A stretch of 64,000 nucleotides of DNA from Siphonodentalium dalli (lineage: Eukaryota > Mollusca > Scaphopoda > Gadilida > Siphonodentaliidae): NCBI GenBank assembly GCA_032622095.1, contig CP136067.1, positions 73,992,705-74,056,704 on the forward strand, given 5' to 3'. Made by a program: the position numbers and the translations under genes. Within the stretch, counting starts at the first letter, position 1; each line of letters begins with the position of its first letter. Of this stretch, positions 5,937 to 63,245 are shown in pieces. Below the pieces are notes generated by a model that was not told where the DNA came from, made no database searches, and worked only from the letters and a program-made list of their open reading frames with translations.

Positions 5937-6298
5937 AAATAAACTTGTCTTGATGTAACTAAAGCCTAGATCATTGTGTACATGGAAAAAGAATGAGCAA
6001 CTGTCTCAAACATTAATGTGACTATCAATGGCTAGAATATAACTGTCTTCACACTGTTCATCAGTGCATCAAGCCAATCAGTGAAATATTTACATGTCTA
6101 TCAACTCATGATCGGTTACTCTCACAACACCTAAAATATCCAAGTCTGGCATAGTGACTGTTTGTCATTTATTATAACAGAAGTTGATCCAGTAGACTAA
6201 CAAAAGTGTTAAGGCATAATGCTAGATAATGGGCTGGTTGACATTAGAAATTATGGAATTGTGTCTATCCTGTACAATGACCTAAGTTTGCATATATA
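5937..6298 (+). repeat. 360-bp tandem duplication, unit 1
   Basis: Shares with unit 2 (from 6299) the phrases 'gagcaactgtctcaaacatt', 'catcaagccaatcagtgaa', 'ccaagtctgg' and 'agactaac', in the same order. Its right half (6148-6298) is also present in inverted orientation at 7350-7590. No coding potential. Confidence 0.7.
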
Positions 6299-7060
6299 AG
6301 TAAACTTGTCCTGATGTAACTAATACCTAGACCATTGTGTGCACGGACAAAGAGCGAGCAACTGTCTCAAACATTAATGTGACTATCAATGGGTAGAAAC
6401 TATCTGTCATCAGCGCATCAAGCCAATCAGTGAATTATTTACATGTCTTTCAACTCAGATGATCTCTCACAAGACCTAAAGTATCCAAGTCTGGTATAGT
6501 GCTGTGACTGCTTGTCATCTATCTATATACTAATATACATAAACGAGTAAGATCTGTCCAGATTTCTCTCTCAGACCCCTGGACCGAGTTCAACTAAATT
6601 TGGTGTGGTGACTCAGGGTACCCTGGCGGATATTATAATGGTATTAATTTTTCAAAATTTTTAATTAAAAAAAATAAAATAAAATTGGTTTTGTTAAATT
6701 GAGCAAGGAATTCACTCTTAAACAAAAATATAAAAAACAATATATATAAATCAAAATGTTTCAATGACCAAATGTGCTTGAAGTGCACAAAGGGGCCACC
6801 GCTAAATGAAGGTTCTGTCTAAGATCAAAATGTGTGCGAAGTCCCACAGGTATCTCCGACGCTGAATATAGGCTCCCAAAGGCAGCCTGTTTCAGCTAGT
6901 TTAGTATAATAGAAGTTAGTTGCTCAAGTAGACTAACATAAGTGGTATGAAATATATTAGATAATGGGCTGGTTGACAGACTAATCAGGAAATAGTTAGA
7001 AATTATGAATTTTGTGCATTCTACACAATGACCTAGGTTTACAGATGATCAGCAATTTAT
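6299..7060 (+). repeat. 360-bp tandem duplication, unit 2, interrupted
   Basis: Matches unit 1 from 'aaacttgtcctgatgtaact' to the 'gactgcttgtcat' phrase at about 6518, is then broken by an insertion (6522-6899), and resumes at 'taatagaagttagttgctc' through 'caatgacctaggttta'. The break makes the inserted segment easy to delimit. Confidence 0.65.
6522..6899 (+). mobile_element. Candidate non-autonomous Helitron
   Basis: The insertion inside duplication unit 2 starts with TCTATATACT after an A and ends with CTAG before a T. Helitron family rules are a 5' TC, a 3' CTRR, and insertion between A and T. A short hairpin, AGGCT at 6870-6874 with AGCCT at 6884-6888, lies 7 nt before the CTAG, where Helitrons carry one. 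It has no ORF. A related sequence ('aaatttggtgtggtgactc', 'gggtaccc') is present on the minus strand near 41470-41520. The A/T-rich edges leave a few bases of ambiguity, and Helentron-type ends are an alternative. Confidence 0.5.
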
Positions 7061-7189
7061 AAAACTTTTTTGTTTTCAATTAAAACAGCTTCTGAAACAG
7101 GCTAAACTGTTATTTGAACTAATGAAGATAATTCCCACTCATATGAGTGATATCAGTAGTTTTATCCGATTTTAGACCAATTTTAGTGA

Positions 7190-7368
7190 AATTTGGGGGG
7201 TGGGTGTCAAAAAATTGGGAATATGAATTGTTTTTTGTGCAGGTTTGGGGGTGGTGGGTCCCCGAAAATGCCAGATGCAAAAAAAACGGCATATGTTCCT
7301 GCAAATATTTTACTACCCACCCCGGGGGGGGGGGGGGGGGGTAGTAAAAAATTTGCAGGAACATATGG
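7190..7368. repeat. G-run segment with 30-bp inverted arms
   Basis: Arms at about 7289-7318 and 7342-7370 ('catatgttcctgcaaat' against 'atttgcaggaacatatg') flank a run of 18 G (7324-7341). Upstream lies 'ggggggtgggtgtcaaaaaattgg', similar to 895-916. Reading frames across it are shadows of the homopolymer. Confidence 0.6.
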
Positions 7369-7590
7369 TCTAGGTATTAGTTACATCAGGACAAGTTTAC
7401 TTATATATGTAAACGTAGGTCATTGTACAGGATACACACAATTCCATAATTTCTAACAAATTACCGATTAGTCTGTCAACCAGCCCATTATCTAGCATTA
7501 TGCCTTTATACACATTATACACTTTTGTTAGTCCACTGGAGCAACCTCTGTTATAATAAATGACAAACAGTCACTATGCCAGACTGTGCT
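7350..7590 (-). repeat. Inverted third copy of the 360-bp duplication
   Basis: Read on the minus strand it runs 'gtctggcatagtgactgttt', 'gataatgggctggttgaca', 'cctgtacaatgacct', 'aacttgtcctgatgtaact', matching 6148-6340 closely. Together with 5937-7060 this brackets the G-run segment as a large imperfect inverted repeat. Confidence 0.75.
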
Positions 7591-7689: not shown

Positions 7690-8611
7690 GGAAAATCCCG
7701 TTCAGCAGTACGGCGGCTGCAGTTCAGCAGATTATCGCGAACGCAGTTTAACTCAATTGTAACGAAGTTAGCAGAGTTTATGTTGTGCAAATGACTTGCA
7801 ATTAATGGGCCATAACCAGGTACATGGATAGAAAACCATTATATATGCCGACCTCCACCCCCCCCCCCAGTTCAGCAGTTCTAAATACCGTTCAGCAGTT
7901 CATGTCGAGCAGTTCAGCAGATTCTCCGACGCAGTTTAACCGATTTAACGGGTCCATCAGGAAATACAGGAAGAAAACACGATTTGACCGACCTTCACAC
8001 CAGTTCAGCAGTTCAAAATCCCGTTCAGCACTTTACCTGGAGCATGCAGTTCAGCAGAATCTCCAAAAACTCAGTTTAACTTATTTTTAACAAAGATACT
8101 CGGGTGTAGGTGATACAAATGACTTGTAATCGATGGGCCATAACCAGGTTCATGGATAGAAAACCATTTGGCAGACATACACCCAGTTCAGCAGTTCAAA
8201 ATCCCGTTCAGCACTTTACCGGAATTTTGAACTGCTGAACTGACATGTGGTGGAGGTCGACCAAATTGTTTTCTACCCATGTACCTGGTTATGGCCAATC
8301 GATAACATGTCATTTGCATCACATACACCTCAGTTAATATCTTCGTTAAAAATCAGTTAAACTGAGTTTTGGATATTCTGCTGAACTGCTCCCGATTAAG
8401 TGCTGAACGGGATTTTGAACTGCTGAACTGTGGTGAAGATCGGTTAAATCGTGTTTTCTTCGTGTATTTCCTGCATGATGGACAATCGATAAAAAGTCAT
8501 TCGCACAACATATACCCGACTATCATCGTTAACAATCGGTTAAACTGTTTCGGGGAATCTGCTGAACTGCTCGACATGAAATCGCGACCTGATTTCCATT
8601 CTGTCCTAAGT
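7690..8611 (+). repeat. Left inverted subrepeat block ('ttcagcagttc' family)
   Basis: Several copies, in both orientations, of a module: 'gttcagcagttcaaaat' and 'cccgttcagca', then 'cagtttaac', 'aacgaag', 'caaatgactt', 'gggccataaccaggt' and 'catggatagaaaa'. Copies begin near 7700, 7870, 8000 and 8185, and in inverted orientation near 8225 and 8400. The block ends inward with a 31-bp sequence (8581-8611) whose exact reverse complement begins the right block at 19589. No protein is encoded. Confidence 0.75.
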
Positions 8612-10437: not shown

Positions 10438-10830
10438 ATCAAAGCACAGTTTGTGTTCAAACATGACCGAAAAAAACAACAAGGCGTGCCCCTTTAAAGT
10501 TTAATTAATTGTTAATTATGGCCAGGTTCGATAGTGATGGTTTGTAAATCAATGTGTTTTGAGCACAGTCATTTAGAAGTCACTGAGTAAAGTACATGGT
10601 CAGGTAATATATGAAAATGCCCCGCCTATCACTTATATTCCACTTATTTGGATTAGCACTAAATCAGTTAATATTTTGCTTTAATATTGGTACCTGAGAC
10701 ATGTAGTTACAATATGGTGTATCGCCCGTGCACTTCCTAAAATTTACCAATTCATGAAATGAACTCGTTTATATTTCATGGTCGTATTTTGACCAGGGTA
10801 CTGCGTAGTTTATTCTATTCCACGATATTA
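10438..10830. other. Non-coding stretch, nothing identified
   Basis: AT-rich sequence between the MITE and the inverted TATA-box segment. No supported feature. Confidence 0.4.
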
Positions 10831-10920
10831 AAGGGGGACTTACACAAAATCCGGTCATGTATGGGACCATCTCCTTTTATACTCAACAGAATATATGCAA
10901 CAGATGAATAAATGTGATAA
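10831..10920 (-). repeat. Left arm of inverted promoter-like segment
   Basis: On the minus strand it reads 'ctgttgagtataaaaggagatgg' and on toward 'ccggattttgtgtaag', matching the right arm at 13936-14020 with scattered differences. Both arms contain a TATA-box-like TATAAAA (here 10876-10882, minus strand) facing away from the foldback element. Weaker similarity may extend to about 11010. The outer edges read TA-AAGGG on both sides, which would fit a TA-duplicating MITE, but this is tentative. Confidence 0.6.
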
Positions 10921-11047
10921 CATTGACTAGTGCAAAATACACTGGTGTGCCCAGTGAACTACTCAAACAACATGGTATTATAATGAAAAAGAATTCGTGA
11001 TTCTGTTCATAACTTCATTTTCATTATAAGCACCATTTTGTTTACAT

Positions 11048-11056
11048 CATTTCTAG
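11048..11056. other. 9-bp target-site duplication, left copy
   Basis: CATTTCTAG lies directly before the outer end of the left foldback arm. The identical nonamer lies directly after the right arm at 13884-13892. Confidence 0.85.
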
Positions 11057-11120
11057 ACAGACATGACAATTGGAACTTATTCCCTATTCCTTATTCCTTA
11101 TTTTCAAAAATGTCGCTTTC

Positions 11121-11912
11121 GACCGATTTGACGGCATGGGTGGGTGGCCCGCCCCAAATACCACCTAGAAACAACCCGACCCCCCACCCATCACCCCCGG
11201 GGGGTGCCACCCCGAGGGGGTGAAAATGGGGTATGGACCATTTTCGAGAACGGTAAGGATTTCGACCGATTTGACGGGATGGGTGGGTGGCCCGCCCCAA
11301 ATACCACCTAGAAACACCCCGACCCCCCACCATCACCCCCAGGGGTGCCACCCCGAGGGGGTGAAAATGGGGTATGGACCATTTTCGAGAACGGTAAGGA
11401 TTTCGACCGATTTGACGGCATGGGTGGGTGGCCCGCCCCAAATACCACCTAGAAACACCCCGACCCCCCCACCCATCACCCCCGGGGGTGCCACCCCGAG
11501 GTGGTGAAAATGGGGTATGGACCATTTTCGAGAACGGTAAGGATTTCGGCCGATTTGACGGCATGGGTGGGTGGCCCGCCCCAAATACCACCTATAAACA
11601 CCCCGACACCCCACCCATCACCCCCGGGGGTGCCAACCCGAGGGGGTGAAAATGGGGTATGGACCATTTTCGAGAACGGTAAGGATTTCGACCGATTTGA
11701 CGGCATGGGTGGGTGGCCCGCCCCAAATACCACATAGAAACACCCCGACCCCCCACCCATCACCCCCGGGGGGTGCCACCCCGAGGTGGTGAAAATGGGG
11801 TATGGACCATTTTCGAGAACGGTAAGGATTTCGACCGATTTGACGGCATGGGTGGGTGGCCCGCCCCAAATACCACCTAGAAACACCCCGACCCCCCCCA
11901 CCCATCACCCCC
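11121..11912 (+). repeat. 142-bp tandem array, left arm (6 units)
   Basis: The phrase 'gaccgatttgacggcatggg' (with minor changes) starts at 11121, 11264, 11405, 11548, 11690 and 11833, giving spacings of 141-143 bp. Each unit continues 'gggtggcccgccccaaatacc', a G/C-rich dyad around 'cacccccgggggtg', and 'ggtatggaccattttcgag'. The unit is far more G+C-rich than the host sequence. The proline/glycine-rich ORFs read through it in several frames are repeat artefacts. Confidence 0.9.
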
Positions 11913-12119
11913 GATTAGATTAATATATATTAATATATAATTGGATTTAAATATTGATATGGATTCCAGTGAATAAACAAATAAGTTTCAGTTGTGTGGA
12001 TATAAATGGATATGAATGAATATGCAACGGTCAATTTTCTCAATAACAAGTTTTGGAGTATGTTTTGGCTGCATTTACTAAGGAGAATTATTAAGACTTA
12101 TAAGCATATATGAAGTCCG

Positions 12120-13095
12120 GCAATGCATAAGATGACGAAAACCGGATATCGACCATACGAGCGTGACGTGTATCATAAGGAATTCAGTCATATATGGAGT
12201 CAGACAATGCATAAGAGAACGAACACCGGTGATCGTCCATACGAGTGTGATGTGTATCAGATGGAATTCAGTTAGTTATGGAGTCTTGCAAAGCATATGA
12301 GAACGAACACCGGCGATCGACCATACGAGCGTGACGTGTATCATAAGGAGTTCAGTCATATATGGAGTCTGACAATGCATAAGAGGACGAACACTGCCGA
12401 TCGTCCATACGAGAGTGACGTGTGTGACAAGGAATTTAGTCATATATGTAGTCTGACAATGCATAAGAGGACGAACACCGGCGATCGTCCATACGAGTGT
12501 GACGTGTATCAGAAGGCATTCAGTTATGTATGGAGTCTTTCAAAGCATAAGAGGACGAACACTGGCGATCGACCATACGAGCGTGACGTGTATCATAAGG
12601 AATTCAGTCATATATGGAGTATGGCAATGCATAAAAGGACGAAAACCGGCGATCGTCCATACGAGTGTGACGTGTATCAGAAGGAATTCAGTTATATATG
12701 GAGTCTGACAATGCATAAGAGGACGAACACCGGCGATCGACCATACGAGCGTGACGTGTATCATAAGGAATTCAGTTATATGTGGAGTCTGGCAATGCAT
12801 AAGAGGACGAACACCGGCGATCGACCATACGAGCGTGACGTGTACCATAATGAATTCAGTCATACGTGGAGTCTGGCAATGTATAAGAGGACGAACACCG
12901 GCGATCGACCACACGAGCGTGACGTGTGTCATAAAGAATTCAGTCATATATGGAGTCTGACAATGCATAAGAGGACGAACACCGGCGATCGTCCATACGA
13001 GTGTGACGTGTATCAGAAAGAATTCAGTCATATATGGAGTCTGGCAAAGCATAATAGGACATAGACCGGCCATCGTCCATACGAGTGTGCTATAT
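12120..13095 (+). repeat. 84-bp zinc-finger-derived minisatellite (12 registers)
   Basis: The motif 'accgg' recurs at 12141, 12225, 12309 and then every 84 bp to 13065 with no length change. 84 bp is 28 codons, the length of one C2H2 finger plus linker. The main frame (open 12297-13064) reads TGDRPYE(C/R)DVY(Q/H)KEFS...LxxHKRTN in each unit. The linker (TGDRPY), the hydrophobic F and L positions and the first His survive, but the second Cys is mostly Tyr, the first Cys is often Arg, and the second His is Asn. Two unit types (ERDVYHKEF and ECDVYQKEF) partly alternate, giving a hint of a 168-bp higher-order period. An upstream unit carries a TAG near 12272. Most likely non-functional repeat DNA copied from a zinc-finger gene. 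Confidence 0.85.
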
Positions 13096-13182
13096 ATGAT
13101 ATTTAGCGATTTAACTAAAACTTGCAACTACTGTGTCATGAAGTGGGTTATCATGTGATCTGGCAGTTTTTTCAGACTAATT

Positions 13183-13883
13183 AAACGGGGGGTCGGAGTG
13201 TTTCTATGTGGTATTTGGGGCGGGCCACCCACCCATGCCGTCAAATCGGTCGAAATCCTTACAGTTCTCGAAAATGGTCCATACCCCATTTTCACCACCT
13301 CGGGGTGGCACCCCGGGGGTGATGGGTGGGGGTTGGGGTGTTTCTAGGTGGTATTTGGGGTGGGCCACCCACCTATGCTGTCAAATCGGTCGAAATACTT
13401 ACCGTTCTCGAAAATGGTCCATACCCCATTTTCACCCCCTCGGGGTGGCACCCCCCGGGAGTGATGGGTGGGGGGTCGGGGTGTTTCTAGGTGGTATTTG
13501 GGGCGGGCCACCCACCCATGCCGTCAAATCGGTCGAAATACTTACCGTTCTCGAAAATGGTCCATACCCCATTTTCACCCCCTCGGGTGGCACCCCCCGG
13601 GGGTGATGGGTGGGGGGTCGGGGTGTTTCTAGGTGGTATTTGGGGCGGGCCACCCACCCATGCCGTCAAATCGGTCGAAATACTTACCGTTCTCGAAAAT
13701 GGTCCATACCCCATTTTCACCCCCTCGGGGTGGCACCCCCCGGGGGTGATGGGTGGGGGGTCGGGGTGTTTCTAGGTGGTATTTTGGGCGGGCCACCCAC
13801 CCATGCCGTCAAATCGGTCGAAAGCGACATTTTTGAAAATAAGGAATAAGGAATAGGGAATAAGTTCCAATTGTCATGTCTGT
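13183..13883 (-). repeat. 142-bp tandem array, right arm (5 units)
   Basis: Inverted counterpart of the left arm. 'tcaaatcggtcgaaa' recurs at 13241, 13381, 13524, 13666 and 13809, with spacings of 140-143 bp. The last unit is followed by the unique terminal sequence shared with the left arm. Units differ between arms by small indels in the G/C runs, so the arms are homologous but not recently homogenised. Confidence 0.9.
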
Positions 13884-13892
13884 CATTTCTAG
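13884..13892. other. 9-bp target-site duplication, right copy
   Basis: CATTTCTAG, identical to 11048-11056, abuts the outer end of the right foldback arm. Confidence 0.85.
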
Positions 13893-13935
13893 AGCACATG
13901 GCTGTTTTTTCATTATTCCATGGCTCAAATTCATT

Positions 13936-14020
13936 AATTTGTCGCATGTATTCTGTTGAGTATAAAAAGGAGATGGTTTCATAAATGGCCGGATTTAGTG
14001 TACAGTAACCCTTTACAAAT
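13936..14020 (+). repeat. Right arm of inverted promoter-like segment
   Basis: Inverted relative to 10831-10920. Shares 'ttctgttgagtataaaaa', 'ggagatgg' and 'atggccggattt'. The foldback element sits between the two arms, so the target was probably already a palindromic region. Confidence 0.6.
13961..13968 (+). promoter_or_regulatory. Candidate TATA box for the downstream transposase-like gene
   Basis: TATAAAAA about 245 bp upstream of the first ATG of the 14.2-17.4 kb gene, in the same orientation. The matching arm at 10.88 kb carries the same box facing the other way. A start site near 13990-14000 is inferred, not seen. Confidence 0.4.
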
Positions 14021-14180
14021 ATCCGGATTGGATCGACATTCTTGTGACCCCACTCATATACAGGTATAGCTGCTCGGGTATATAGTTTGGGTATGTCGCT
14101 GACGAAACTACTGCCTTATCAGGCCATATGTTCAAGCCAACCGTCACCAGTGTATATCCTTTTGCTCCGTGGTAAATGAT

Positions 14181-14199
14181 TGCTCTTATACATTTTCAG
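14181..14199 (+). other. Candidate 3' splice acceptor before the first ATG
   Basis: Pyrimidine-rich 'tgctcttatacattttcag' followed by GGACAGT and then ATG at 14207. This fits an intron in the 5' untranslated region, with an untranslated first exon nearer the TATA box. The matching donor is not identified. Confidence 0.35.
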
Positions 14200-14266
14200 G
14201 GACAGTATGGACCAAAGGCCACCAGTCGGCACTATTAATGCGGCGAAAATTGCAGACGAAGAAGAC

Positions 14267-15070
14267 TGTATGGTCCACCCGGAAGTCAGGATGGTCATTG
14301 ATGCATTGATCGAACAAGTTTGCGCATACACTTATGACGTTTCTGAAAGTGCGACCGACCACAATGACTTGTCGGATATTGTTAACACTTCACAGACTGA
14401 TATGGCTCGCGAGGATATCTTAAACGCGGATGTCAGGGTGGTCATGGATGACTTGGTAGAACAAGTTTGTGCAAATGCTTATAACGTTTCTGAAAGTTTG
14501 GTTGATCACAATGACTTGTCGGATATTGTTAATACTTCACAGACTGATATGTTTCGCGAGGACATCTTAAACCCAGAAGTCAGGGTGGTCATGGATGCCT
14601 TGGTAGAACAAATTTGCGCATACACTTATAATACTACTGAATGTTCGGTCGACCAAAATTACTTGTCGGATATTGCTAACACTACAAAGACTGACATGGT
14701 TCGCGAGGACATCGTAAACGCGGAGGTCAGGGTGGTCATGGATGCTTTGCTAGAACAAGTTTGTGCATACACTTATAAAGTTTCTGAAAGTTTGGTTGAT
14801 TGCAGTGATTTGCCGGGTATTGTTAACACTTCACAGACTGATATGGTTCGCGAGGACATCTTAAACGCGGAGGTCACGGTGGTCATGGATGCCTTGGTAG
14901 AACAAGTTTGTGCAAATGTTTGTAACGTTTCTGAAAGTTTGGTTGACCACAATGACTTGTCGGATATTGTTAATACTTCACAGACTGATACGTTTCGCGA
15001 GGACATCTTAAACGCGGAGGTCAGGGTGGTCATCAATGCCTTAATAGAACAAGTTTGTGATCACTTTGGA
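14267..15070 (+). repeat. 147-bp in-frame tandem repeat inside the gene (6 units)
   Basis: 'gtcagggtggtcat' (or a one-base variant) starts at 14285, 14432, 14579, 14726, 14873 and 15020, exactly 147 bp apart. Each unit encodes 49 residues with core EVRVVMDALVEQVCAY and later SDIVNTSQTDM(V/F)RED. A diverged seventh unit (VMAMLDGIVEDICSVYED) follows at about 15150-15210. The absence of length changes, with many synonymous and conservative differences, suggests past selection on the reading frame. The unit is predicted to be helical and acidic; its role is unknown. Confidence 0.9.
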
Positions 15071-15574
15071 AGTGTTGTCGAGAAAACAGATGGGTCGAAC
15101 ATTGGCAGTAACTGTTCTGTATCTATGGCAGTTCACGGAGACAACGTGCATACGGATGTGATGGCAATGCTCGATGGTATAGTAGAAGACATTTGTAGCG
15201 TCTATGAGGATTTTGATAACACAGATGGATCTAGTGATGCTGATTTTAGCGTGTTAGATCTTGACGTAGTTCGCGAGGAGTTTGTGTGTGCCGAAGTAAC
15301 AGAATTTGTCGATGAATCATGGACCACAGCGTATATTGATAGAGGCGTTGAACTGGACGTCGAGCGAGCCGTCCTAGAAGGGCCTTCCACAAGTTATAAA
15401 GGTGGTAGTGAATTAGTGGAATATATGGATGTGAGCTTTGAACCATCTACCAGTACACGGGAAGTCTTATCAACGCACGAGGACACAGATATGTCTACTG
15501 CTAACGATTCAGACGGTGACAGTGACGATGATTCGGATGAGACTGATTATGAGCCTAGCTACTCTGAGGCGGAC

Positions 15575-15632
15575 GACACGGGCGCGAGTGACACTGGCGC
15601 GAGTGACACTGGCGCGAGTGACACGGGTGGGG
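15575..15632 (+). repeat. 15-bp coding microsatellite (DTGAS)n
   Basis: Three and a half copies of a 15-bp unit encoding Asp-Thr-Gly-Ala-Ser, within the acidic linker between the 49-residue repeats and the basic region. Confidence 0.85.
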
Positions 15633-17410
15633 ACATGAGCATGCAAATTGATGAGAGAAATGTTGAAGAATCTCAACCTGAAACGAAAAAGCGTTCGCGA
15701 AAGCGTAAACGCAACCCATCTGAGTGGGCAAAAAACATTAAGAAGCGATGTCGACAGTCTGGGTCGGAGTACGAGAATCTTCGTGGGAAGATTGTCAAGA
15801 GCAAACAGATGGGCCGGCAGAACGATTGTCGCGGGTTATGTAGATTCAAATGCTATGACAAAGTTGACCGCGATAGACGGGAAACACTTTTTGAAAAATA
15901 CTGGTCTCTTTCTGACCCAAAAAAAAATGTGTTTTATTCACAGACTACGGAGCGCGTGGCTAAGTCTAGAACATCAGGCTCCGGTCGGAGAAAATTTGCA
16001 TTCCGGTATTATTTTATCGCGGATGGGGAAAACATCGTGTTTGTCGGGAATTCTACCTGTCTGTTCTAGACATATCGCCGAGAAGAGTAGCGTGGTATCA
16101 TATAGCCATAATAAGTGCGCGAATACACATGTATACCCACAATCAAAGCTAGAGGAGTGCACACAGGACCTCGAATTCCAGAGGCCAAGCGGGAGTTTAT
16201 TAAACAACATATTAATAGTATTCCACGAGTGGAATCTCATTATTGCAGAGCCAAAACTACTAAAGAATATTTCGAACAGTCTCTTAACCTGTGCAGACTA
16301 TATCAGAAATACGTTGAATATTGTGAGTCACTCGATGAGGAACCAGTGAAAGAACACACCTACAGAAATGTGTTTAATTACGACTTTAACATCGAATTTC
16401 AGCGACCGAAGAAGGATCGTTGTGACACATGCGAGCAACATCGCATGAAGACCAAAAACGGAGAGGAAGTGTCTTCTGAAATATATGACGGACATATTCA
16501 GGATAAATGCGCAACCTACGACGAACGGCAGAATGACAGGAAAGGGAACTCCGCGGTGGTTGTGTTTGACATCGAAAATGTCATAAGTTGCCCGAGGGCA
16601 AATGTATCTAATTTTTTCTATCTCCGTAAATTCACAATGTACAACATGACAGCCCACTGCTCGACGGACAAGCAAGTCTATTGTGCCGTTTGGGGTGAAC
16701 ATTTAGCTGGTCGGAGTGGAAATGATGTAGCGAGTGCGGTTATTAAAATTATGGAAAAAGTGGCTGATGACAATCCTCGAATTTCCAAATTTATCCTTTG
16801 GTCCGACTCGTGCGTACCCCAAAATAGAAACAGCATCATGTCGACAGCATTGAAACACTTCATGCTTGAACATCCGGGAATAACTCAGTTAGAACAAAAG
16901 TTTTCAACCCCCGGTCATTCCTCTGTGCAGGAAGTCGACAACGCGCATAGCCAAATTGAGAAAAGGATGAAAGTTATCGAGATTTATAGCCCAATTGGTG
17001 TGGTCCGTGTTTTGTTACAAGTGAACAAAAAGAAACCGTTCAAAGTCATCCAGCTGAAAGCTGACGACTTTCGAGACTTCCAATATACGGCAAAAGGTAT
17101 GAAGTTCAATCAAGTCCCCTATACTCGCGTGAAGAGTATCCTGTATGAAAGTTCGGGGCCCTCGTCCATTCGATACAAGGACTCTTTCACAAACCCATTC
17201 ATATTTGTGAGTGACTTAACGAAAGGCACTGGGAAAAATACTCGAAGCAAAAATCAGAAGAACCCAGTGTCTTTTTCTGACACTGGTGCCATTCTTCAGC
17301 CCTCTAGTCTTGCCAAAGACAAGATCAAGGACATCGAGTCCATGTACATATACATGCCGACTATTGATGTGCATTTCTACACAGCAATTTTTAATTCCAG
17401 TGGGAACTGA

Positions 17411-31761: not shown

Positions 31762-32040
31762 TCAATATACTCCACACTTTAGCTGCAATTTTATGTATTT
31801 GTAAAATAAAGCGCTCTTTATTTGGTATATGCAATCCCTTTTAAACGATATGTTCGATTGGATATACTCATGACAAGACGCTCCGGCAAATTTATATTCT
31901 TTACAGGAGTTGACGTTTTTCCCACAGAAATCCCGCCAAATGTCACGTAAACGAACATCGTTTGGAAATGAATGTAGAATTATACCTAATTGAGAGTCAC
32001 AACACTGGCCACAGCCGAAAACACTGCATTTATTTGGCAT
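31762..32040 (-). pseudogene. Truncated THAP-domain reading frame
   Basis: Starts MPNKCSVFGCGQCCDSQLG at 32040 and continues HSFPNDVRLRDIWRDFCGKN. This is the first half of a THAP zinc-binding domain (C2CH type, with the first Cys pair present). It then jumps to the C-terminal tail seen in the other copy (NVNSCKEY), so the segment with the last Cys and His is deleted. Without those ligands the domain cannot bind zinc. The ORF continues to 31762 in non-homologous residues. Confidence 0.65.
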
Positions 32041-32160
32041 TGTCATGGATGAATGAACGAAAAATAATTGTGAATATATGGGACACTCGGGGCATATATA
32101 TGGAAAATTGTAACAACATTGTGAACACGCACCCTATTAGAATTCACATGTTGGCTCGTG

Positions 32161-62175: not shown

Positions 62176-62822
62176 ACCCTTTCAGCACGGCCAGCTGAAA
62201 TATCGGCTTCCTGGTAGGCTGCTGTAAGCCGATATATTGGCTTTCATGTATCACTATATAACAACATCGTTGATTGGTTAGTTTTTTTACGACAGTGACC
62301 ATTCAGCGACCCTCTACTTGAAATACACGGCAATATTGACGTCAATGGGTGTAATTCCTTTGTAATTATATATAACTTGTGACGTCATAGAACTACAGGT
62401 ATAAATCATCTATTGAACAAAGTGGGGTCTGCGGCGCCTTTGGACATTGTCATTGCATGACAGCGGGAAATCTCTTCATTATGGGCACAATTTAGGGTGT
62501 GAGACAAGTAAACAGTTCAATCCTACATCAGAATCTTAGGATTACTATGGCATTACACGAATATACACAATGGAGACCAATGTACAGCTCGGGGCAAAAT
62601 AATGTGGCCACCATTTGCACTGGGATCGTAGCGAAGTGGATTTTTTATGGCAATAATCCAATATTTGTATAAGTATGAGTTGATCAGGCACACCTGCATG
62701 AATAATCCGTTCATATTCCTAACGACCAATTTAACTGAATAGATGTGACATCTAAACTGACTGGGTGCTCTTAGTAGACTATTGGTATATATACGGTACC
62801 ATCGTAAATACCGCAGCATGTA

Positions 62823-63035
62823 TAGCAATGCCCTAAATAATCGACTCCTTAACCACAGGAGAATTATGGGTAACTTTTCAGGATTTAGTTGGAAATATGG
62901 TTTGTTGCCATTCAACGGAAAGCTCTCACTGAGAGCTTTCCTATGAATGGTAACAAGCCATATTTCTGACTAAATCCTGAAAAATTACCCATAATTCTCC
63001 TGTGGTTAAGGAGTCGATTATTTAGGGCATTACTG
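62823..63035. mobile_element. 213-bp near-perfect hairpin MITE with TA flanks
   Basis: Symmetric about base 62929. Both arms of 106 bp are almost fully complementary, with GGAAAGCTCTCA and TGAGAGCTTTCC at the tip separated by one base. The ends are (T/C)AG(C/T)AATGCCC, and TA borders both sides (62821-62822 and 63036-63037). TA duplication and CAGTA-like ends are typical of Tc1/mariner-derived MITEs. Confidence 0.85.
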
Positions 63036-63245
63036 TACACCATAATAACTTGTCGAGTTGCACCATATCAAAATATTCACCTGTATATTTACAACTGTAA
63101 ATCGATGACCTAAACTAAAATTTGGACTTTATATTGTGCCAATATAATTACAAATTTGTCTAGCTATTATTAAGGACATCAAAATAATAACTCTGGTACA
63201 CTGCAAATTGGAAGCATTTGTGTAAACATGGAATTTACACCTTAT

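Follow-up and report, generated by a model that had tools for sequence, protein, structure and literature searches.

Elements whose long inverted repeats are made up of tandem units include Tetris of Drosophila virilis, Galileo, and Tm1 of Meloidogyne. Tetris has a middle domain without apparent coding capacity, its arm repeats of approximately 220 bp have given rise to satellite arrays, and unequal crossing-over is named as a possible origin of two of its alleles that differ by a repeat (PMC4079207). The arm repeats of Galileo contain further transposase-binding sites (PMC3688188), and duplications of 8–10 bp, most frequently 9 bp, accompany 45 of 53 complete Tm1 elements (PMC3169594). Below, we describe an element of this kind from the scaphopod mollusc Siphonodentalium dalli. 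It lies in a stretch of 64 000 nucleotides (assembly GCA_032622095.1, contig CP136067.1, positions 73 992 705–74 056 704 of the forward strand), which is referred to here as the window and to which all coordinates apply. The likeness to Tetris, Galileo and Tm1 is one of architecture, not of sequence comparison. We consider the element, with a probability of approximately 0.68, to be a non-autonomous foldback DNA transposon that carries in its loop a captured, decayed and locally expanded array of C2H2 zinc-finger units.

Tandem-repeat miniature inverted-repeat transposable elements of the bivalve Donax are reportedly also mobile elements with internal tandem repeats. The Cg_HINE Helentrons of Crassostrea are mobile elements with a central tandem array, but they are described as lacking target-site duplications (PMC7492417), whereas here a duplication is present and tandem arrays also form the arms. 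What sets the S. dalli element apart from Tetris, Galileo and Tm1 is that a 143-bp GC-rich arm unit is combined with an unrelated, finger-derived tandem array that fills the loop. For the finger unit, the nearest parallel is the zinc-finger minisatellite of Prdm9, which has an 84-bp unit and a variable copy number (PMC3890296). An 84-bp coding unit is common to both, but in the present array the ligands are lost and the diversity is not focused on the DNA-contact codons, which have four non-synonymous changes compared to 5.3 expected. Literature searches, which covered titles and the beginnings of abstracts of the papers listed, 15 of 3383 in one search and 12 of 17 in another, gave no finger-derived repeat and no fingers carried by a foldback element, although their existence is not thereby disproved; the passages on zinc fingers or foldback elements in PMC12692304, PMC5857280, PMC3169594 and PMC7492417 describe no such array, and the last of these, the Cg_HINE paper, mentions zinc finger 0 times.

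The anatomy of the element can be read directly from the DNA. It spans 2827 bp (11057–13883) and has the long terminal inverted repeats holding tandem repeats, and the target-site duplication, of a foldback transposon; the first-pass annotation of this DNA had already placed the finger array in a foldback context, and the terminal repeats, the duplication and the 143-bp arm arrays are all found. The terminal inverted repeats beyond the arm arrays are at 11057–11116 (plus strand) and 13824–13883 (minus strand), and the terminal 68 bases (11057–11124 at the left end) are identical at both ends of the element. On either side is a copy of the 9-bp duplication CATTTCTAG (11048–11056 and 13884–13892). 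Its length depends on where the ends are placed, being 9 bp if the element ends in ACAG and 7 or 11 bp with a one-base shift of the end; if the end is placed one base further out, a 5-bp duplication remains. The arms, as delimited by Tandem Repeats Finder (TRF) and an inverted-repeat search, consist of 5.6 copies of the 143-bp repeat on the left (11117–11913, plus strand, GC content 0.61) and 4.5 copies, inverted relative to these, on the right (13187–13823, minus strand, GC content 0.59), and their longest pairing covers 499 bases at 94%. Between them lies the loop, which is occupied by the finger array and two AT-rich spacers, one of 191 bp on the left (11914–12104, GC content 0.25) and one of approximately 86 bp on the right (13101–13186, GC content 0.33). 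On the plus strand, the left spacer is no more similar to the finger unit than shuffled sequences are (p 0.39); against the reverse complement of the unit the similarity is marginal (p 0.03 with 200 shuffles, in one of four comparisons). The right spacer, compared as 13099–13186, has no similarity to the unit above that of shuffles on either strand.

The array was reported by TRF as an 84-bp tandem repeat of 11.7 copies (12105–13089, 87% matches, 0% indels). In the register of the finger, it comprises eleven complete units of 28 codons on the plus strand (12156–13079), flanked by a 51-bp fragment on the left (12105–12155) and a fragment of 10–21 bp on the right (13080–13100, the shorter figure applying if the array ends at 13089, as in TRF). 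The twelve exact 84-bp registers of the first-pass annotation thus become eleven complete units and two fragments, the exact period being as it had stated. Mean pairwise identity among the eleven units is 87.9% (range 79.8–95.2%). In copy number and in a pairwise identity of 80–95% the array has the character of a homogenised tandem array, as in satellite DNA; the designation 'satellite DNA' itself is unproven, with one array of approximately 1 kb seen in the window.

The consensus unit, YERDVYHKEFSHIWSLTMHKRTNTGDRP, agrees with a C2H2 finger in its length, its linker, and its Phe and Leu; it is a 28-residue repeat with a TGEKP-like linker and a Phe/Leu core. A 262-residue plus-strand frame through the array matches the Pfam families zf-H2C2_2, with 77.5 bits (cut-off 40; E 4.4e-22), and zf-C2H2_6, with 31.8 bits (cut-off 25). 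PF00096, the standard C2H2 model, is absent from the Pfam results for this frame; when two single units were scanned it reached 15.5 bits in one, against a cut-off of 25.2, and was not listed for the other. NCBIfam gave nothing above cut-off in the three frames scanned. Compared with protein chains of solved structure, the 262-residue frame had 234 distinct matching sequences at E values of up to 1, with ZNF568 in first place (E 2.5e-44). A piece of two units (56 residues) had 116 at E values of up to 0.01; its lowest E value, 2.2e-40, belongs to an entire chain in which five stretches are matched. Among the 60 matches listed for each of these searches, the best of the two-unit piece are zinc fingers. 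A 195-residue frame on the minus strand matched none of the solved chains at E values of up to 1, nor did it reach the cut-off of any Pfam family. On the evidence of these matches, the finger homology of the array exceeds chance, and the array is C2H2-derived in its plus-strand frame.

None of the eleven complete units has the four ligands of the C-X2-C-X12-H-X3-H motif. The maximum is two, reached in six of the eleven. The first cysteine (Cys1) is retained in four (units 2, 5, 7 and 11), and also in the right edge fragment, but is Arg in six units and Ser in one; the second (Cys2) is retained in units 4 and 10, the other nine having Tyr. The first histidine (His1) is present in ten units and replaced by Tyr in the remaining one, and the second (His2) is present in none, there being nine Asn, one Lys and one stop codon; the left edge fragment also has Lys at this position. 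Of the core and linker, Phe is kept in 11 units, Leu in nine, Thr-Gly in ten, Arg-Pro in 11 and the whole TGDRP linker in nine. It had been proposed at first pass that finger length, linker and hydrophobic core were preserved while Cys2 and His2 were altered in almost all units, each by a single-base change. The counts agree with the preservation and with the alteration of these two ligands, but the losses at Cys1 (seven of 11 units) and His1 (one of 11) had been overlooked, and by the genetic code a single-base change accounts for the Tyr and Asn codons, whereas the Lys and stop codons at His2 are not explained in this way. Three of 12 signature positions have been lost from the consensus unit, each of them a ligand (p 0.018, from a post hoc comparison). 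A working zinc-finger gene is ruled out because no unit has four ligands.

Nor is the array an open frame throughout. Stops in the finger frame occur at 12111 (in the left edge fragment), 12273 and 13062, with two more shortly beyond the array at 13104 and 13116. The longest ATG-to-stop frame in this register, of 255 residues (12297–13064, plus strand), begins at a Met codon that arose from a Lys codon in unit 2 alone of the 11. The array most likely yields no working protein. A search of all six frames of the window with a pattern for complete C2H2 fingers found none.

It is less straightforward to place the ligand losses in time relative to the amplification. The first-pass annotation held that the former preceded the latter and suggested a tree of the units, which was built by parsimony from the 11 complete units, excluding the edge fragments, with heuristic searches. 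There were 284 rooted shortest trees of 49 steps with all sites, and 236 unrooted shortest topologies of 41 steps with the ligand codons removed. Units 2, 5, 7 and 11, which share Cys1 and a Gln at codon 7, form one side of a split in all 284 of the former and in 75 of the latter. At the first base of the Cys1 codon three different states occur, so that at least two changes are needed there; two suffice in those 75 topologies and three are needed in the other 161. Because Cys1 is intact in these units and in the right edge fragment, it was probably lost once the array already existed (or was regained). Units 4 and 10, which retain Cys2, pair in all 284 trees. Without the ligand codons the pair is not among the 14 groups displayed; Cys2 requires two changes in 197 of the 236 topologies and one in 39, which implies the pair in 39 of 236, and the timing of its loss relative to amplification is ambiguous on these trees. 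As no complete unit has kept His2, the common ancestor of the present units would most simply have lacked it already. Loss before amplification is thus supported in part: it fits His2 and is ambiguous for Cys2, and Cys1 is still polymorphic. Capture of a single finger, followed by decay and then expansion, is possible but not shown, because an identical pattern would result if an older multi-finger array had been homogenised, with unequal crossing-over or conversion carrying a broken unit through it.

This bears on the alternative that survives best, to which we give somewhat less than an even chance, and which is compatible with the foldback reading preferred here since it concerns the same element with a different order of events. 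It supposes that a multi-finger array was captured whole, that the amplification was the ordinary expansion, by 84-bp units, of a C2H2 gene that still worked, and that the ligands were lost later and the losses spread among the units. Prdm9, itself an 84-bp array within a C2H2 gene, provides the precedent; Cys1 and Cys2 are still polymorphic between units, and an excess of changes at third codon positions (given below) is consistent with some divergence under coding constraint. Against it stand the loss of His2 from all 11 units, together with the Lys at this position in the left edge fragment, and the undiversified DNA-contact codons.

The arms provide a reference for the age of the array. 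Their seven complete units (four left, three right), anchored on one short word and counted without the incomplete end units, have a mean identity of 96.8%. Since the finger units are only 87.9% identical, the array appears either to predate the arms or to have been homogenised less than they have. Recent movement of the entire element is suggested by its identical ends and clear duplication. For the preferred foldback transposon, mobilisation in trans, capture of finger DNA and spread of the units are steps that we infer. A transposase made elsewhere would recognise the ends, and perhaps the arm repeats, for whose role those of Galileo may serve as a model, and would move the entire element with the finger array as a passenger. 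A host or transposon gene would have been the source of the captured finger DNA, whose zinc ligands would have been lost while zinc binding was unselected. The present units could then stem, via unequal crossing-over or conversion, from one that had already lost His2 and perhaps also Cys2, with the loss of Cys1 probably coming later in one subfamily.

Several observations weigh against this scheme. Neither a donor gene nor a transposase was found, and the element occurs once in the window, its terminal sequence being confined to its own two ends. Third codon positions account for 21 of the 42 distinct changes counted in the units relative to the consensus (p 0.012; 14.4 under the null), and for 16 of 32 if the two stop-bearing units are left out (p 0.046); synonymous changes number 13, compared to a null of approximately 9.3 (p approximately 0.08), and the nine non-ligand signature codons have five non-synonymous changes compared to a null of 10.2 (p 0.025, with a post hoc grouping). 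The same test gave no signal in a neighbouring in-frame 147-bp repeat (five units), so that the codon test lacks a working positive control. It should be added that, at these nine codons, changes of all kinds are also fewer (10 versus 14.6, p 0.06). In favour of the scheme, the ligand codons have seven non-synonymous changes, at least as many as in shuffles (4.8, p 0.18), and the DNA-contact codons are not diversified. Minus-strand frame 1 of the unit (12156–13079) has a synonymous excess as well (20 versus 12.5 expected, p 0.004; p 0.042 without the two stop-bearing units), perhaps a by-product of shared third positions. Taken together, the codon tests are weak and contradictory with a slight lean to past constraint; they neither prove nor refute neutral decay, and do not demonstrate a working protein. 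Relatives were also sought in two sets of viral and prokaryotic sequences, which are poorly suited to a eukaryotic transposon: patterns of the array gave one stretch in viral_contigs and two in genome_contigs, none confirmed, and exact patterns of the arm repeat gave 0 in each.

The fingers might instead derive from a lost protein of the element itself, a finger-bearing transposase or accessory factor, and not from a host gene. The loop of a transposon is where a transposase gene would be expected, and this is where the array sits; but finger families alone are above the Pfam cut-off in the 262-residue frame, with no transposase remnant, and the two inner spacers (compared with the finger unit only) are short, so we regard this origin as unlikely. 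We are slightly more doubtful that the array is, or recently was, translated into a repeat protein that is free of zinc and belongs to a degenerate finger family, with weak selection acting on linker and core. The third-position excess, the few non-synonymous changes at non-ligand signature codons, the restriction of the consensus losses to ligands and the 255-residue open frame are what such a protein would lead one to expect. The three stops within the array, and the start codon found in unit 2 only, speak against it, as do the total of non-synonymous changes, which at 29 is close to the null of 32.6 (p 0.09), and the stronger synonymous excess in minus-strand frame 1, a frame without known homology. 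A more far-reaching version is very improbable. In it, the product of the loop is a mobile zinc-free finger-repeat peptide that lost zinc binding early and is selected for linker and core; if this were true, the transposon would be spreading a 'dead finger' protein, perhaps as a competitor of the host finger proteins that silence transposons or as a means of evading them. That the 84-bp period and the finger likeness arose by chance in a tandem repeat has a negligible probability and is ruled out by the 116 solved sequences matched by the plus-strand two-unit piece up to E 0.01, compared to none on the opposite strand.

Around the element, an outer imperfect inverted repeat (10824–10941, plus strand, and 13903–14023, minus strand) probably marks an older inverted-repeat element, within which the foldback element came to lie. 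Two long stop-to-stop frames follow on the plus strand, at 14180–16066 (629 residues) and 16115–17407 (431 residues). The first begins 287 bp beyond the target-site duplication and contains 5.4 copies of the in-frame 147-bp coding repeat; its match to the Pfam PNPase RNA-binding domain (40.3 bits) is considered a chance effect of the repetitive sequence. For the second, Pfam gave no match with an E value of up to 1; by eye, it resembles a transposon protein. Further away in the window are a THAP-domain-like frame on the minus strand (31765–32133; 20.3 bits, under the Pfam cut-off of 23.9), a palindrome (62819–63039) with 110-bp arms, 92% complementary and one base apart, and two inverted-repeat pairs that are possible miniature transposons (6244–7456, 92 bp, 97%; 7958–8473, 87 bp, 91%). 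No tRNA genes were found.

If the foldback transposon with its captured and decayed finger array is the right reading, coding DNA has here been caught in the course of becoming passenger tandem repeats within a mobile element. The candidate seed of a satellite would then be a captured coding repeat in the loop, in contrast to Tetris, where it is the arm repeats that have expanded. With the frame and the history of the ligands still legible, the order of capture, decay and expansion would be testable in related copies.
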